The notes below the pieces were generated by a model. The model searched no databases, was not told the origin of the DNA, and worked only from the letters and a program-made list of their open reading frames with translations. 64,000 nucleotides of DNA, taken from assembly GCA_026391675.1 (NCBI GenBank), contig JAPLDQ010000042.1, positions 62,001 through 126,000 on the forward strand, given 5' to 3'. Positions within the stretch are counted from its first letter, which is position 1. Every line of letters starts with the position of its first letter. This document shows, piece after piece, positions 16,147 through 44,871 of this stretch. This DNA comes from Bacteroidota bacterium. GTDB taxonomy: Bacteria > Bacteroidota > Bacteroidia > Bacteroidales > JACABE01. The position numbers and the translations under genes were made by a program.

Positions 16147-16195
16147 AAGTACTTGGAGTGCCTTGAGTACTTAGAGTACTTAAAGTTATTGGAGT
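16147..16195. repeat. AGTACTTGGAGTGCCTTGAG-family repeat, solo copy
   Basis: AGTACTTGGAGTGCCTTGAG then TACTTAGAGTACTT follows the GH20 stop almost directly. The same family forms the inverted arms around the four-helix-bundle gene at 31913-32284 and another solo copy after ftsK. Confidence 0.8.
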
Positions 16196-16228
16196 ACAAC
16201 AGGTTTCAAAGTTTTAATACATGTAAAG

Positions 16229-20221: not shown

Positions 20222-22153
20222 ATGAAAACATTAACAAAACTGGGATGTACCATATTGGCAGGCAGCACTTCACTGCTTGCTCATGCACAGCAGCAAAAAC
20301 TACCCAATATCATCCTTATTTACACCGATGATCAGGGTTATGGCGATTTGGGATGTTTCGGGGCACAGGGATATAAAACACCCAACATCGATAAACTCGC
20401 TGCCAACGGCATACGTTTTACAGATTTTTATGCTCCTCAGGCAGTAAGCTCTGCATCAAGGGCAGGTTTACTCACCGGCTGCTATCCCAACCGTATTGGC
20501 ATTGCCGGTGCTTTAATGCCCTACGATAATAAAGGCCTGAGCGATAAAGAAGTTACCATAGCCGAAATGCTGAAACAAAGGGGCTATGCAACGGCCATGT
20601 ACGGTAAATGGCATCTGGGCAGACAAGCCAAATTCCTGCCGGTGCATCATGGTTTCGACGAATATTATGGCATTCCCTATTCAGTGGATATGATACCAAT
20701 GGAATACGACGGTACTCCGCCTAAAAACGGAAAATCCAACTATCCGCCTTTACCAGTATTATGGAACGACAGCATCATTTCAAAACTAAACAGTTTACCC
20801 GGTATTGATACTTTAACAAGATTTCTTACGGAAAAATCATTGCAGTTTATTGATAAAAATAAAGATTATCCTTTTTTTATCTATTTCCCGCATCCCATGC
20901 CCCATGTACCGTTGGGTGTAACTGATAAATTCAGAAATACCACAGCACAGGGCAAATATGGTGATGTTATTACCGAAATAGACTGGTCGGTTGGCCAGAT
21001 TGTTGAAGAACTGAAGAAACAAGGCTTATTGGATAATACCCTGATTATTTTCACCAGCGATAACGGACCTTGGCTGAACTTTGGCAAGCATGCAGGTTCT
21101 GCCGGAGGATTGCGCGAAGGCAAGGGCTGCAGTTGGGAAGGCGGACAAAGGGTTCCCTGTGTAATGTATTGGAAAGGCCATATACCCAAGGGAATTGTGA
21201 GCGATAAAATTGCTTCGGCAATAGATATTTTGCCCACTTTGGCTGAGATTACAGGCGCTAAACTACCGGAAAACAAAATTGACGGTATCAGCATATTATC
21301 ATTAATGAAAGGAAATAAAAAAGCTGAGCCACGAAAAGTCTTTCTTTATTATTATGAGAACAACCAGTTGCAGGCTATACGCTATGGCGACTGGAAACTG
21401 GCCTATCCTCATACCTATCGTTCTTATCTGGGTGTGGAGGCGGGTAAAAATGGTATGCCGGGACCATACAGTTCTTCTACTTGTGGCAAGGAATTATATA
21501 ACCTTCGCACTGACAGGGCCGAAACAAAGAATGTTATCAATGAACACCCTGATATTGTAAAAGTAATTGACTCAATAGCCGCTGCTGCCCGAGAAGATTT
21601 GGGCGATTTTCTGCTGAATATGAAAGGTAAAAACAGACGTGAACCGGGTTTTTCCTATGTTTATAAGAATAAAGTTGAACATAAAGCTTTGGGTGCTGAG
21701 GTTAAATACAATACTGCTTATAGCGTAAAATATGATGGTGGCGGAGTTAAAGCACTTACGGATGGCAATACAGGATATTCCGATTATGCACACAAGGCCT
21801 GGCAGGGATTTGAAGGTGTGGATTTTAACGCTATCATTACATTAAAAGATACCACATTGGTAAGAACAATCAGAGTGGGTGTTTTACAGGATGAAAACGC
21901 ATGGATTTTCAGACCAAAAGCAATGAAAATAGAATATTCTCTGGATGGAATAAGCTATTTCCCTTTTGGTGAAATAGATGGTAAAGATTTTACTGAAACT
22001 TCAGTTCCTAATCGCCTGGAAGGAATTATTTCCGGTCCTTTAAAACTGAAATACTTAAGAATTCAGGTAGTGAATATGGGTAAATGTCCTGATAATCATC
22101 CCGGTAAGGGACTCCCGGCATGGCTGTTTATGGATGAGATTATTGTAAATTGA
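20222..22153 (+). CDS. Serine-type arylsulfatase A-like sulfatase
   Basis: The 643-residue exported S1 sulfatase has a signal peptide ending near LLAHAQQQ, metal site IYTDDQGYGDLGCFG, activation motif QAVSSASRAGLLTG, GKWHLG, FPHPMPHVPLG and FTSDNGPWLNFG. Ser76 in S-S-A-S-R would become formylglycine; Ala replaces the usual Pro, as in many Bacteroidota sulfatases. The GYGDLGCFGAQGYKTPN start is typical of arylsulfatase A-like enzymes acting on sulfated galactose or N-acetylgalactosamine, but substrate is not decided. Residues 494-643 carry the shared C-terminal module (AWQGFEGVD, NMGKCPDNHPGKGLPAWLF). Confidence 0.93.
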   Translation: MKTLTKLGCTILAGSTSLLAHAQQQKLPNIILIYTDDQGYGDLGCFGAQGYKTPNIDKLAANGIRFTDFYAPQAVSSASRAGLLTGCYPNRIGIAGALMPYDNKGLSDKEVTIAEMLKQRGYATAMYGKWHLGRQAKFLPVHHGFDEYYGIPYSVDMIPMEYDGTPPKNGKSNYPPLPVLWNDSIISKLNSLPGIDTLTRFLTEKSLQFIDKNKDYPFFIYFPHPMPHVPLGVTDKFRNTTAQGKYGDVITEIDWSVGQIVEELKKQGLLDNTLIIFTSDNGPWLNFGKHAGSAGGLREGKGCSWEGGQRVPCVMYWKGHIPKGIVSDKIASAIDILPTLAEITGAKLPENKIDGISILSLMKGNKKAEPRKVFLYYYENNQLQAIRYGDWKLAYPHTYRSYLGVEAGKNGMPGPYSSSTCGKELYNLRTDRAETKNVINEHPDIVKVIDSIAAAAREDLGDFLLNMKGKNRREPGFSYVYKNKVEHKALGAEVKYNTAYSVKYDGGGVKALTDGNTGYSDYAHKAWQGFEGVDFNAIITLKDTTLVRTIRVGVLQDENAWIFRPKAMKIEYSLDGISYFPFGEIDGKDFTETSVPNRLEGIISGPLKLKYLRIQVVNMGKCPDNHPGKGLPAWLFMDEIIVN

Positions 22154-22215
22154 TGCAGTAATGCGATAATGCGCTGATGCGGTGATGCTGTAATGAGTTA
22201 ATTAAAAAAGTTTAT

Positions 22216-22223
22216 TAATTTTG
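22216..22223 (+). promoter_or_regulatory. Bacteroidota -7 box for four-helix-bundle gene A
   Basis: TAATTTTG matches TAnnTTTG and ends 4 bases before the ATG, so the message would be essentially leaderless. If this is the start site, the left repeat arm is not part of the transcript from this promoter. Confidence 0.5.
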
Positions 22224-22227
22224 AGTA

Positions 22228-22599
22228 ATGGAAAAAGAAAATTTAATTTTAGATAAAAGTTTTGCGTTTTCACTTAAGATTATTGATTATGCTGAAATAT
22301 TAGAAGAAAGCAGAAAATATATTTTATCCAGACAATTATTAAAATCAGGAACTTCAATCGGTGCCAATATTAATGAAGCCCAAAGTTCAGAATCCAAGGC
22401 CGATTTTATACATAAATTAAAAATTGCGGATAAAGAAGCTTATGAAACTGAATATTGGCTAAAGCTTTGTAAATTCTCAAAAAATTACCCCAATCCGGAT
22501 GCTTTAATTGAAGAATTAGTCATCCTAAAAAACTACTTTCAAAAATCATTTCTACATCCAAAAAATCATTACATAAATAATACATTATTTCATATATAA
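22228..22599 (+). CDS. Four-helix-bundle protein (23S rRNA intervening-sequence family)
   Basis: The 123-residue protein has the family signature LLKSGTSIGANINEAQSSES, KADFIHKLKIADKEAYETEYW, and helical heptads throughout. This family (four helix bundle protein, S23/IVP) was first seen as the ORF inside intervening sequences of 23S rRNA genes, and is related to the Avd accessory protein of diversity-generating retroelements; members form pentameric barrels and are thought to bind nucleic acid. The molecular role of free-standing copies is unknown. It interrupts the sulfatase-maturase gene pair and is bracketed by inverted repeats. A second member is at 31913-32284. Confidence 0.9.
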   Translation: MEKENLILDKSFAFSLKIIDYAEILEESRKYILSRQLLKSGTSIGANINEAQSSESKADFIHKLKIADKEAYETEYWLKLCKFSKNYPNPDALIEELVILKNYFQKSFLHPKNHYINNTLFHI

Positions 22600-22642
22600 A
22601 TCATCGTATCAGCACATTACCGCATCATCGTATTAACACATT

Positions 22643-27576: not shown

Positions 27577-27762
27577 AGAGTACTTAGAGTGCCTTGAGTA
27601 CTTGGAGTACTTAGAGTTAAAAAGAAGATTGTTACCTCTTAGCGGATTTGATAAAAAAGTAATGAATATATAAAATACATATCCGTTTAGCGGTTTGTTT
27701 ATAAAGTATTTAAAGTTAAAAGAGTAAATAAATTAGTGTCTTTGTGCCTTTGTGGTATAATT
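27577..27762. repeat. Repeat cluster between ftsK and lolA
   Basis: The 204-base gap is filled with repeats: AGTACTTAGAGTGCCTTGAG then TACTTGGAGTACTTAG directly after the ftsK stop, CCTCTTAGCGGATTTG and CCGTTTAGCGGTTTG palindromes at 27635-27650 and 27683-27697, and TTAGTGTCTTTGTGCCTTTG then TGGTATAA at 27733-27760. Each has relatives elsewhere in the window. No promoter box or terminator was recognised. Confidence 0.7.
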
Positions 27763-30275: not shown

Positions 30276-31805
30276 TTATTCCCATTCAATGGTAGCAGGT
30301 GGTTTGGAACTGATATCATATACCACTCTGTTTACCCCTTTTACACGATTGATTATTTCATTGGAAACTTTTGCCAGAAACTCATAAGGCAAGTGTGACC
30401 AGTCTGCAGTCATACCGTCGGTTGAACTAACTGCACGCAAGGCAACTACATTTTCATAGGTTCTTTCATCGCCCATAACACCAACCGATTGAACCGGCAG
30501 CAATATTGCGCCTGCCTGCCAAACCTTATTGTATAATTCGTGGCTTTTTAATTCCTCGATGTAAATATAATCAACTTCCTGTAATATACGTACTTTTTCA
30601 GGTGTAATATCCCCTAAGATTCTGATTCCCAAACCCGGTCCCGGAAAAGGATGACGGTTCAGCAGTTCATCCTTAATACCCAGCGTACGGCCAACTCTTC
30701 TGACTTCATCCTTAAAAAGTGTATTCAGTGGTTCAACTATTTTCAACTTCATATAATCAGGTAAACCACCAACATTATGATGCGATTTGATAGTAGCTGA
30801 AGGACCGTTCACAGAAATGGATTCAATAACATCAGGATAAATGGTGCCCTGAGCCAGCCATTTCACATTTTCGATGGTATGTGCTTCTGCATCAAAAATT
30901 TCAATAAAGGTTTTTCCAATAGCTTTACGTTTGGCTTCCGGTTCTGATAAACCTTTTAAGGCTTTATAAAACTGCTTTTTTGCATCTACTCCTTTTACAT
31001 TTAAGCCCATGTTTAAGTATGAATGCAATACCGTTTCAAATTCATGTTTACGAAGCAAGCCATTATCTACAAAAATACAATGTAAATTTTTATCAATGGC
31101 CTTATGCAGCAATATAGCAGCAACGGATGAGTCAACACCGCCTGATAATCCTAATACTACTTTATCATTGCCTAATTTTTTCTTTAATTCATTGATGGTA
31201 GTTTCAACAAAAGAATCAGGAGTCCAGCTTTGCTGGCATTTACAGATATCAACTACAAAATTTTTCAGTAATATCATACCTTCTGTTGAATGATAAACTT
31301 CAGGATGAAACTGTATGCCGTAAGTAGCTTCATTTTTAATTTTAAAACCGCCGTATTTCACATTAGCTGTACTGGCAATGGTTTCAAAATTATTGGGAAT
31401 GCTCAATATCGTATCTCCATGCGACATCCATACCTGTGAACCATCGCTTAAGCCTTTCATCAATTCATTTTCATGATTTATAAAGCTTAAGTTTGCCCTG
31501 CCGTATTCACGTATGGCTGAAGGCGCAACTTCTCCGCCATTGGTGTGAGATAAAAATTGTGCTCCATAACATACACCCAATAAGGGTACTTTTGTTCTGA
31601 TGGCTGTTAAATCAGGATTAGGGGCGTTTTTATCACGGACAGAAAATGGACTGCCTGATAATATTACTCCTTTAATATTATTTGTTATTTCAGGTATTTT
31701 GTTAAACGGATGTATTTCGCAATACACATTCAATTCCCTGACCCTTCGTGCAATTAACTGTGTATATTGTGAGCCGAAATCTAAAATTAATATTGTTTGA
31801 TGCAT
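30276..31805 (-). CDS. guaA: GMP synthase (glutamine-hydrolysing)
   Basis: The 509-residue protein has the class I glutamine amidotransferase half ([20 protein letters not shown], catalytic Cys in [12 protein letters not shown], His-Glu in [11 protein letters not shown]), the ATP pyrophosphatase half ([19 protein letters not shown]) and the C-terminal dimerisation domain ([16 protein letters not shown], ending PPATIEWE). It converts XMP, ATP and glutamine to GMP, the last step of guanine nucleotide synthesis. Length and all motifs are normal. Confidence 0.98.
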
Positions 31806-31869
31806 GGGGATTTTAACTTTTGTTTATATATATTTTATCTAAATTTTATTATTCAGTAAGTAAGTTACA

Positions 31870-32332
31870 AGTACTTGGAGTGCCTTGATTACTTGGAGTA
31901 CTTATTAGTATTTTATTCTTTCTGAGTACTTTTTATTTTATTAGCAATTGAGGTAAAAATAGCCAGCAATTCATTAGCTTCTGTATAAACTGGTTCAATT
32001 ACTTCAGATTTCACCCAATTCAGTTCTTTAATTATTTCAATCCAATAAACTGTTTCACTCGCTTCACTTACACTTATTTTAATTTTATTATAAAAGTCTG
32101 ATTTACTTCTTGATCTGTTAGCTTCCCGATAATTAGCCCCTATGCTGGTTTCTGATTTGCAAAGCTGATTTCGAAAAACAAATCCTTCAGAATTATTGGG
32201 CAAACTAACACAAAGTTTTACTATTTCAATAGCAAATTTCTTTGTTCTGTTTTCCAACTGTAAACTAAACTCTTTATTATCCATATTTTGTGCTGTTTTT
32301 TAACTCCAAGTACTCAAGGCACTCTAAGTACT
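31870..32332. mobile_element. IVS-like unit B: 30-bp inverted repeats around a four-helix-bundle gene
   Basis: The left arm 31870-31899 (AGTACTTGGAGTGCCTTGAT...) and the right arm 32303-32332 (ACTCCAAGTACTCAAGGCAC...) are inverted copies with 28 of 30 positions identical; one mismatch would still pair as G-U. They stand 13 bases after the stop and 18 bases before the start of the enclosed gene, and nothing else lies between them. Solo copies of the same repeat occur at 16147-16195 and 27577-27620. Mobility is inferred. Confidence 0.6.
31913..32284 (-). CDS. Four-helix-bundle protein (23S rRNA intervening-sequence family)
   Basis: The 123-residue protein shows the same family signature as the gene at 22228: LCKSETSIGANYREANRSRS, KSDFYNKIKISVSEASETVYW, with a helical C terminus (ELLAIFTSIANKIKSTQKE). 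The two are clearly related but not recent duplicates, and the repeats around them belong to different families. Members of this family are found inside IVS elements of 23S rRNA genes and as single genes; their function is unknown, with nucleic-acid binding suspected. It sits between guaA and the M23 peptidase gene inside a 30-bp inverted repeat. Confidence 0.9.
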   Translation of the reverse strand: MDNKEFSLQLENRTKKFAIEIVKLCVSLPNNSEGFVFRNQLCKSETSIGANYREANRSRSKSDFYNKIKISVSEASETVYWIEIIKELNWVKSEVIEPVYTEANELLAIFTSIANKIKSTQKE

Positions 32333-32342
32333 CAAGGCACTT

Positions 32343-34061
32343 TTACTTTAGTAATTCAAATTTTATTTCACTTACATTTTGGCGATTATCTTCTGCTTTG
32401 ATTATTAAATAATTACTTTCCTCAAGCGTTTTCATATCGACATCAATTGTAAATAAGTTGTTTTTACCGTCATATTCCATTAAAATCCACTTTTCATTTA
32501 AAAATGCATTGTATTTTGATAGGCCGGCAAGATTATCTGTTATTTTTATTTCTAATTTTTTTATTTTTGTAATATTTGATTTATCTCTGAAATTCAATGG
32601 CTTAATAGCAGGAGCAGTAGTATCAATTACGACTGCAAATTTACCAAAATTATTGATATTTGTTTTAATAAATCCTTTCTCCCATTTACCGCCTTCTGCA
32701 GTTATGCTATGATCTTCTTTTACACGAACTATCAATAGTTTGGAATTTAAGCTATCTGCAATGCTGTCAGGTCGGATGGAAAGGGAAATATTCCGGTGCA
32801 AAGGAGTGTAAATATCATGTATTTCATGTATATTGGATAAGAATTTGCCTGTCCCTTTTGAGCTGTGATATTTCATAATTATATTATCATACAGGGCATC
32901 AGCAGGAAAATTCAGTTTTACTTCATCTGTTATAAAAGAATCTGTTTTGTTATAGGTTATCAGCATACTGCTGTCAGCAGCTGTTAAGCCTAAGTTTTTA
33001 CTATAGTTAAGTGTAGTATCTCTTTTAACATAAAATACAAGTTCACAGCAGTTTCCATTTACATCCAGAACATTGTATCTGAGTTGATGCGAAAGATTAT
33101 CAGAGAGTTGTATCCAGCCTTTTTTACTTACATATTTGTAAATACTTAATTTATTACCCGGCAATATCCGGGTTTGATAGTACTTTATCCCTGTTTTTAT
33201 ATATGTTGCATAATTAATCAGGCAATTTACATAGCGGCTTTCATCAAAAGCAAAACTTTCGAGTATATGTTTGTAAAAAAGCGAAGTATCAATATATAAT
33301 TCCAGCTGATATATTCCTTTTTTGGAGCTGAATTGCTGCACCTGATCAAAGGCTTCAATTCCAAGGTAAAATTTTGCCGGAACAGCAATAGTGTCATGGG
33401 TTTTAAGATATGTTTTTTTGTGTTTTGTAATTACTTCAAATTCGCTTTGATGCAATCCGTCTTCTGTAAATATTTTTACTGACTGAATTACAGGTTGCAG
33501 GGTATCTTCCAATTTTAATCCAAAAAGCAAAGGATTGATAGGTTTTTCAGTTCTTTCATCTCTGATTTCGAAATGCAGATGTGGTCCTTCTGAACCACCG
33601 GAATTTCCTGCTATAGCTATCGTATCTCCTTTTTTTATTCTTATTTTATTTTTAGGCAGCAATAAATCCTGTTCGAAATTTTCTTTTTCGTACTGAAATT
33701 TTCTTAAATATGCAGTAATTGCCGGATTAAATCCCCTGAGATGTCCGTAAACCGTAACATATCCATTGGGATGTGTAATGTAAAGTGCATTCCCAAATCC
33801 CCACGGAGAAACTTTTATTCTGGAAACATAGCCATTGGCCGGTGCATAAACAATGAATCCTTCCTTTTCCTGTGTACGTAAATCTAAACCAGAATGTAAA
33901 TGATTACTCCTGGGTTCACCGAAGGTACCGGCCAGTTTTAATGGAATATGTAGCGGAGACGAAAAGTAATTGATAGGGTATTGTTTCTGTGCAATGACAA
34001 AAGCATTACTAAAAAATAGTAAAAATAAGAATAAGAATATTTTTTTTGTATTGCGTTTCAT
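32343..34061 (-). CDS. M23-family metallopeptidase
   Basis: The 572-residue exported protein has a signal peptide (IFLFLFLLFFSNAFVIA) and near the N terminus an M23 (LytM/lysostaphin) domain: HSGLDLRTQ with the HxxxD zinc ligands, VTVYGHLRGF and HLHFEIRD (HxH). The remaining 370 residues are beta-rich repeats of unknown role. M23 enzymes cut peptide cross-links in peptidoglycan, or, when degenerate, activate amidases; here the zinc ligands look intact, so it is likely an active endopeptidase in the periplasm. Its stop is 10 bases beyond the right arm of unit B. Confidence 0.9.
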   Translation of the reverse strand: MKRNTKKIFLFLFLLFFSNAFVIAQKQYPINYFSSPLHIPLKLAGTFGEPRSNHLHSGLDLRTQEKEGFIVYAPANGYVSRIKVSPWGFGNALYITHPNGYVTVYGHLRGFNPAITAYLRKFQYEKENFEQDLLLPKNKIRIKKGDTIAIAGNSGGSEGPHLHFEIRDERTEKPINPLLFGLKLEDTLQPVIQSVKIFTEDGLHQSEFEVITKHKKTYLKTHDTIAVPAKFYLGIEAFDQVQQFSSKKGIYQLELYIDTSLFYKHILESFAFDESRYVNCLINYATYIKTGIKYYQTRILPGNKLSIYKYVSKKGWIQLSDNLSHQLRYNVLDVNGNCCELVFYVKRDTTLNYSKNLGLTAADSSMLITYNKTDSFITDEVKLNFPADALYDNIIMKYHSSKGTGKFLSNIHEIHDIYTPLHRNISLSIRPDSIADSLNSKLLIVRVKEDHSITAEGGKWEKGFIKTNINNFGKFAVVIDTTAPAIKPLNFRDKSNITKIKKLEIKITDNLAGLSKYNAFLNEKWILMEYDGKNNLFTIDVDMKTLEESNYLIIKAEDNRQNVSEIKFELLK

Positions 34062-44213: not shown

Positions 44214-44220
44214 ATCTTTG

Positions 44221-44871
44221 ATTTCTCGCAGATTTCCGCAGAGTTTCTCGCAGATTTCCGCTGGTTTTTTTATATTTCTCGCAGATTTCCGCGGTGTTTA
44301 ACGCAGATTTGTGCAGATTTTTTTCTTTTTATAATTTATTTACAATTCTGATAATAGATTCATTTAAAGAAGTTGAATTAAAATTAATGAGTATTCCTAA
44401 CTTTTTATCGGTTAATTTCAAATAAGTTAATAGTTGTTTGTGATGAACATCTGATAATTCATTCACGGATTTAACTTCAATAATAACTTTGTCTTCCACT
44501 ATAATATCCAAACGAAATCCTATTTCAAATATTAAATCAGCATATGACATTGGAACAGGAAGTTGTGTTTGAACTTTTAATCCTTTCTGCGAAATCTCAT
44601 AAGCTAATGCTACTTCATAAACAGACTCTAATAATCCCGGTCCAAGTGCCGAATGTACTTTGAAAGCAGCCCCCCTTATTATATATGAGATATCGTTTTC
44701 GTGCATTTAAGTCTTATTTCTCGCAGATTTCCGCTGATTTATTTTATTTTTCTCTCGCTGAGTTTCGCAGAGTTTAACGCAGATTTCCGCAGATATTTTA
44801 AATAATTGTAGTTTTCATATTATTAATTCTGCGCGACTCCGCGAATTACTCCGCGTAACTCCGCGAGAAAT
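44221..44871. mobile_element. IVS-like unit C: CGC-rich repeats around the GxxExxY gene
   Basis: Left arm 44221-44254 (ATTTCTCGCAGATTTCCGCA...) and right arm 44838-44871 (TCCGCGAATTACTCCGCGTA...) are imperfect inverted copies, 26 of 34 positions. Further direct copies of CTCGCAGATTTCCGC lie at 44252-44320 and 44715-44800, so the flanks are denser than in units A and B. The only gene between is the GxxExxY gene. Related words occur at 12895-12935 and 20165-20215. Mobility is inferred. Confidence 0.4.
44329..44706 (-). CDS. GxxExxY protein
   Basis: The 125-residue protein carries the name motif G-P-G-L-L-E-S-V-Y near residue 22 and the core FRLDIIVEDKVIIEVKSV, a D...ExK pattern typical of PD-(D/E)xK nuclease-like folds (family PDDEXK_3). 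A second conserved part is HHKQLLTYLKLTDKKLGILINF. No function has been settled for this family, which is common in intergenic regions of Bacteroidota, Planctomycetota and others. It sits between the ABC transporter and dnaJ genes in a stretch packed with CGC-rich repeats on both sides, and should be cytoplasmic. Confidence 0.9.
   Translation of the reverse strand: MHENDISYIIRGAAFKVHSALGPGLLESVYEVALAYEISQKGLKVQTQLPVPMSYADLIFEIGFRLDIIVEDKVIIEVKSVNELSDVHHKQLLTYLKLTDKKLGILINFNSTSLNESIIRIVNKL

Follow-up and report, generated by a model that had tools for sequence, protein, structure and literature searches.

Genes for four-helix-bundle (FHB) proteins of the S23 family are annotated in a great many genomes, and two structures from the family were solved in 2006-2007. 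To our knowledge, neither the S23 protein nor the mobility of the intervening sequences (IVSs) that encode it has an explanation. The closest described system is the 23S rRNA IVS with an S23 open reading frame, known from Coxiella and Leptospira; the Coxiella IVS is 428-444 nt long with a 28-bp terminal stem, and the function and origin of IVSs remain unclear according to the same study (PMC4990558). In the REPIN/RAYT system (RAYT, REP-associated tyrosine transposase; PMC3116915) each repeat family has one gene, which sits beside the repeats it belongs with; intergenic DNA also contains many copies without a gene, single or paired; and gene and repeats co-evolve family by family. The Avd protein of diversity-generating retroelements (DGRs; 4DWL, 8UB7; PMC10053308) has the same fold as the S23 proteins. 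Finally, TAACTGA heptamers form intergenic 7-nt arrays at gene boundaries in Beggiatoaceae, Cyanobacteria and Bacteroidetes, with a patchy distribution suggesting horizontal spread; a post-transcriptional role has been proposed for them, with S1, Csp or Csr as candidate binders (MacGregor 2015, PMC4679880).

The unit described here lies between guaA and an M23 gene in a Bacteroidota genome (G000, the host). The window, by which we mean the whole 64,000-nt stretch of DNA that was analysed, contains the following features.

31866-32343, minus strand: whole unit, between M23 (32343-34061) and guaA (30276-31805), both neighbours on the same strand
32303-32341, minus strand: 5' arm (in gene sense), a tandem 9-nt G-strand array, AGTGCCTTGAGTACTTAGAGTGCCTTGAGTACTTGGAGT, directly after the M23 stop
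31913-32284, minus strand: four-helix-bundle gene (FHB; S23/IVS-protein family), 123 aa, the only gene within the arms, with the signature of purifying selection
31870-31899, minus strand: 3' arm, an inverted C-strand array on the guaA side
22153-22642, plus strand: second unit, with another arm family, TGATGCGG; 5' array, FHB gene at 22228-22599, 3' array
16148-16197, plus strand: solo array of the same family as the guaA-M23 arms, 7 nt past the stop (16141) of a GH20-like gene
27577-27617, plus strand: solo array of the same family as the guaA-M23 arms, 3 nt past the ftsK stop (27574)

The names GH20 and ftsK come from reading the protein sequences, with no database match behind them.

The inverted arms at 31870-31899 and 32303-32332 are real, as a preliminary description of this DNA had it: they pair at 28 of 30 positions (93%), are spaced by 403 nt and enclose this one gene. 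What has to be given up is the view of each arm as a single 30-bp repeat, the arms being instead tandem arrays, of 7-9 nt in general and here of the 9-nt units ACTTGGAGT and GCCTTGAGT. The right arm is the longer (32303-32341, an 18-nt tandem repeat of 2x9), reaching 32341 on the M23 side, where it starts at the M23 stop codon. A 16-mer of the arm has 5 matches in the window against 0.42 expected. The gene product matches PF05635 (E 2.5e-20, 73.1 bits against a curated cut-off of 33.8), which is its sole Pfam match, and TIGR02436 (E 1.1e-26, 93.2 bits against a curated cut-off of 24). Its AF2 model (pLDDT 91.9; TM 0.75-0.83 to 2rld) predicts the fold of the S23 proteins 2RLD and 2GSC and, more distantly, that of Avd (TM 0.66-0.72). 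By score and fold, the protein belongs to the S23/23S_rRNA_IVP family. Its dN/dS of 0.07-0.20, calculated with synonymous sites near saturation, indicates that the protein is under purifying selection.

The unit resembles a 23S rRNA IVS in its PF05635 protein, in terminal inverted repeats of ~28-30 bp whose loop holds the open reading frame, in its total size (430-480 nt) and in its sporadic distribution. Unlike such an IVS, it lies between protein genes, and its arms are 7-9-nt arrays with family members throughout the genome. No rRNA was found within 1.5 kb of 40 FHB loci, and thus the unit is not itself a 23S rRNA IVS; an Rfam scan around it returned nothing relevant. Structure prediction for the transcript pairs the arms into an outer stem, with the ORF in the loop (z -5.65), in agreement with the earlier proposal. 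This predicted stem, a size and design like those of the Coxiella IVS, an arm polarity that is fixed relative to the ORF, and an upstream gene that is co-directional in 60 of 70 units would all suit an element that acts as RNA only, that is, an IVS that has moved into mRNA, from which RNase III would free the FHB cistron by cutting the stem, with the scattered arrays falling outside the life cycle. We nevertheless consider this unlikely. Mismatches between arms show no excess of the G.U-compatible kind (78, against 107 of the opposite kind), and we therefore do not claim selection on, or maintenance by, RNA pairing. Furthermore, the co-directionality barely exceeds a background of 75% (p=0.03) and was judged too weak to count as evidence, and an RNA-only element leaves unexplained why the scattered arrays match resident genes, as described below.

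The reading that we prefer, at a probability of roughly 0.6, takes the unit to be a selfish element that is IVS-like and free-standing, with its FHB protein as the trans-acting partner of its repeat family. Related genomes contain the guaA-M23 gap both with and without the unit. The gap measures 523 nt in the host, where it holds the full unit; 249 nt in G002, where the 5' array is expanded and is separated by a short spacer from the inverted arm, with no gene; 66 nt in G001, where a solo arm occupies the position of the M23-side arm; and 34 nt in G003, where there is no array. The gene may have been lost in G001 and G002, or gained in G000. The site of the second unit in the window is empty in G002 and G003 (3-nt gap; genomes and gap are the same for L008), and the L007 site is empty in G003 (18 nt). 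The L003 site is empty in G003 (11-nt gap) and carries another FHB subfamily with other arms in G001, G002, G004 and G043, while the L004 site in G001 is a gene-less inverted pair. From these empty and replaced sites it follows that gene and arms change together at a site. The earlier proposal of a free-standing IVS-like unit is thus borne out by the predicted outer stem, by empty and intermediate sites and by arms that co-change across relatives; a lack of empty sites or of co-variation between the arms would have spoken against it, and both exist. It is important to note that the sister genomes share only ~50-70% protein identity here, too diverged for target-site duplications to be read, and that L008 may show a 3-bp ATG duplication.

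The gene-less inverted pairs of the same arms (the guaA site of G002, L004 in G001 and C358 in G002) are reminiscent of MITEs and other non-autonomous transposons; in contrast to these, the FHB arrays have no known transposase partner, and no target-site duplication is established. In C358 of G002 (L212:7850-11470), gene-less inverted pairs follow the stops of a sugar kinase, a rhamnose mutarotase and an FHB gene, and several FHB genes lie within 15 kb; this cluster is one of nested insertions.

Followed across the order, homologues 48-80% identical to the guaA-M23 FHB gene occur in ~27 of 393 genomes, at unrelated sites, and nearly all are flanked on both sides by arms from a single drifting family (AGTACTTAGAGTGCC, AAAGTGCCTAAAGT, GAGTTTGGAGTGCC, AGAATTCGGAATTCGG). 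Gene and arms of the AGTACTTAG family thus stay together in ~27 genomes. Within the family, a copy's own arms are more alike than the arms of other copies (permutation, p=0.003), and the array pattern is present in at least 2 copies in 17 of the 27 genomes with the gene, against 18 of the 366 without it (Fisher p about 1e-13). An empty site and the same unit at unrelated sites, the two marks of a mobile element, are therefore both on hand. Judged from the genome comparisons, gene and arms are shown to be one unit by the clean empty sites in sisters and the family arms at unrelated sites.

The pattern is not confined to this family. The host genome (4.04 Mb) has 13 PF05635 matches, and nearly all of these FHB genes are framed by short tandem arrays in inverted orientation, with a repeat unit specific to each gene (among them TAGGCAA, GTTATTAA, TTATGAA, AATTAGG and TGATGCGG). 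At 118 FHB loci of relatives, the inverted alignment score of a locus's own flanks has a median of 18.75, compared with 9.0 for flanks of mixed loci, and exceeds the 95th percentile in 83% and the 99th in 63%; in direct orientation, the 99th percentile is exceeded in just 19%. The G-rich strand is in the 5' arm in 68 of 74 cases, with 6 opposite (binomial p=2e-14), and the commonest array period is 7 nt (44), followed by 8 nt (19) and 9 nt (6). A signal of AG phase-locking was judged too weak to count. When 155 genes in 228 kb were scanned for inverted flanks, FHB genes came out on top; the one exception was an L-rhamnose-mutarotase-like gene, which lies between composite arrays. Among loci from Clostridia, Acidobacteria, Planctomycetes, Deltaproteobacteria, SAR324, Omnitrophota and others, 24 of 37 exceed the 99th percentile for inverted own flanks. 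The pattern is general to the FHB protein family in many phyla, and so wider than the single unit first described. FHB genes at L005 and L012 are broken by in-frame stops with their arms still recognisable; these are decaying units.

We found 192 arrays in 1.23 Mb of the host, which extrapolates to ~600 per genome. Leaving aside the arms themselves, 103 of 183 arrays have a match among the arms of the resident FHB genes, compared with a mean of 7.75 (maximum 18 in 40 sets) for equal sets of non-resident arms and 17 for the resident arms reversed; in this and the following comparisons arrays are counted as independent although families share descent, and the excess is therefore to be read as a strong association rather than as an exact probability. 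The remaining 80 are unmatched, and some families are without a resident FHB gene. In G107, an unrelated genome of the order, the result was replicated, with 10 of 38 arrays matching against 1.05 (maximum 5 in 60 sets). In other phyla, the pattern of two cognate arms had 238 and 187 matches in the two genomes concerned, against 4 and 2 when reversed; a third genome, with a near-identical arm, had 86 against 12 reversed, and seven other genomes had 0-11. These comparisons show, at the level of sequence, that each genome's gene-less array families match its resident FHB genes. Repeats conserved away from FHB genes had been expected to weaken the preliminary description, and here the outcome is divided: arrays without FHB genes are abundant, yet their families track the resident genes. 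As a separate observation, a family of ~12 arrays in G107 (TAATTAGATCAATTCGATTAATTAGAT; L417-L436) has no match among the ten arms of resident FHB genes that were compared.

On their outer side, arrays lie close against gene boundaries, for the most part stop codons. Where the upstream gene is co-directional, 56% of G-strand arrays lie at most 12 nt from its stop, compared with 13% on random placement in the same gap, and in armed units the 5' arm begins a median of 4 nt past the upstream stop. Such placement, the match of array families to resident genes and the purifying selection on the protein could be expected of a regulon in which FHB proteins bind array RNA near the stop or start codons of many mRNAs, their own arms serving autoregulation; heptamer arrays near start codons have likewise been read as regulatory (PMC4679880). 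We regard a regulon as rather improbable, given that arrays turn over fast and differ between congeners at the same site, that arm families are replaced along with the gene at the same site, and that an unsystematic look noticed no common function among array-adjacent genes. In line with the fast turnover, an intergenic scan of 131 kb of G001 (C34, L203-L209) detected no array, against 11 in the 64-kb host window; array load differs sharply between congeners.

The gene-less copies after the GH20-like gene and ftsK, present as first described, had been thought of as relics, landing sites or protein-binding sites. Gene-less or decayed units are the most likely of these. Were the arrays landing sites that spread by slippage and recombination alone, with FHB genes as passengers trapped between inverted arrays, it would be natural that arrays far outnumber FHB genes, that G001 and G002 have gene-less arrays at the guaA site, and that a DUF1493 gene is also framed. 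This model is improbable, since in the 1.23 Mb the inverted pairs with FHB genes are all G..C whereas five around ordinary genes are opposite, since array families match resident FHB genes, and since gene and arms remain joined at unrelated sites in the AGTACTTAG family. That the pattern arises by chance or from the composition of AT-rich intergenic DNA, where low-complexity arrays inflate local alignment scores generally, has a negligible probability and is already refuted by the controls, in that own flanks beat other loci's flanks, reversed arms and neighbouring genes, and the pattern also appears in GC-richer arms and in other phyla.

Returning to a selfish element with a trans-acting FHB protein, a dependence on reverse transcriptase, as in an Avd-like retro-element role, was considered and is not supported: 9 genomes with at least 10 FHB genes have no RVT_1 hit, and FHB counts do not differ. 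In contrast to Avd, FHB gene number is independent of RT genes; the host's sole RVT_1 hit is on another contig, and no DGR template or variable repeat was identified. As these RVT_1 counts leave an RT role unsupported, we favour a RAYT/REPIN-like relation, in which binding of the protein to its repeats, and their movement, are presumed. The FHB unit shares with REPIN/RAYT all the features listed above, and differs in its protein, which lacks the HUH/Y1 nuclease, and in its repeats, which are 7-9-mers in tandem where REPIN/RAYT has short palindromes; by this analogy it would work like a REPIN/RAYT system without the defining nuclease. No linked transposase or RT was seen for the unit, and the protein has no known catalytic site.

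In the element that we propose, a G-array, the FHB gene and an inverted C-array follow one another, and the arms would be the element's ends. The FHB protein would recognise its own array family, either as hairpin DNA or as the transcript stem, and help copies, whether or not they carry the gene, into new intergenic sites, with host enzymes presumably doing the copying and insertion. In mRNA, the arms would form a stem enclosing the FHB cistron, like that of 23S rRNA IVSs. Gene-less pairs and solo arms would be non-autonomous or decayed copies, and solo arrays, gene-less pairs and full units would be stages of one life cycle, whose order we infer. Most arm families have a single FHB gene, from which it follows that the gene itself can transpose only rarely.

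A broader claim, which we hold only tentatively, is that S23-type FHB proteins are dedicated trans-acting partners of their own tandem-repeat families, forming, in many phyla, a two-part mobile system with no known nuclease that would be the source of many unexplained intergenic 7-9-nt arrays and of the 23S rRNA IVSs. Searches of open-access full texts gave no earlier report of the link between FHB genes and arrays, and the pairing of FHB gene and own repeats has the look of a mobile-element system that is widespread and, it seems, as yet undescribed. The arrays are like the TAACTGA heptamers in position and patchiness; the heptamer study gives no mechanism and, on a text search, makes no mention of S23 or four-helix proteins (PMC4679880). 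The link joins two puzzles, namely the function of S23 proteins and IVSs and the patchy intergenic heptamers, and both become testable because each FHB protein has its own predicted recognition sequence, swappable between families. If true, it would amount to a new logic of mobile DNA, a non-nuclease protein with a tandem-repeat end, and to a major cause of turnover in intergenic DNA, in Bacteroidota as well as in other groups.

Exclusivity of the arms to FHB genes was rejected as an absolute rule, because a DUF1493 gene is framed and gene-less pairs and solo arrays are common. This DUF1493 gene (141 aa; L330:1486-2066) sits between metF and a nucleotidyltransferase gene and is framed by GTTATTAAG arrays in the polarity of an FHB unit, possibly by chance. 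A longer FHB gene (~147 aa), armless, is found beside the same conserved gene in 5 of 5 family genomes (L011, L061, L063, L065 and L076) and is possibly a domesticated, vertically inherited form. In a KSB1 genome, two Acido-Lenti-1 RNAs (RF01687) lie ~0.6-1.2 kb from an FHB gene (L265:2486-3104). Lastly, a GxxExxY gene in the window (PDDEXK_3, PF13366; 44329-44706, minus strand) is flanked by CGCAGATTT arrays that are direct, not inverted (44220-44866), with a third related array, ACTCCGCGA, nearby; GxxExxY genes may be another family of genes that goes with tandem repeats of its own.
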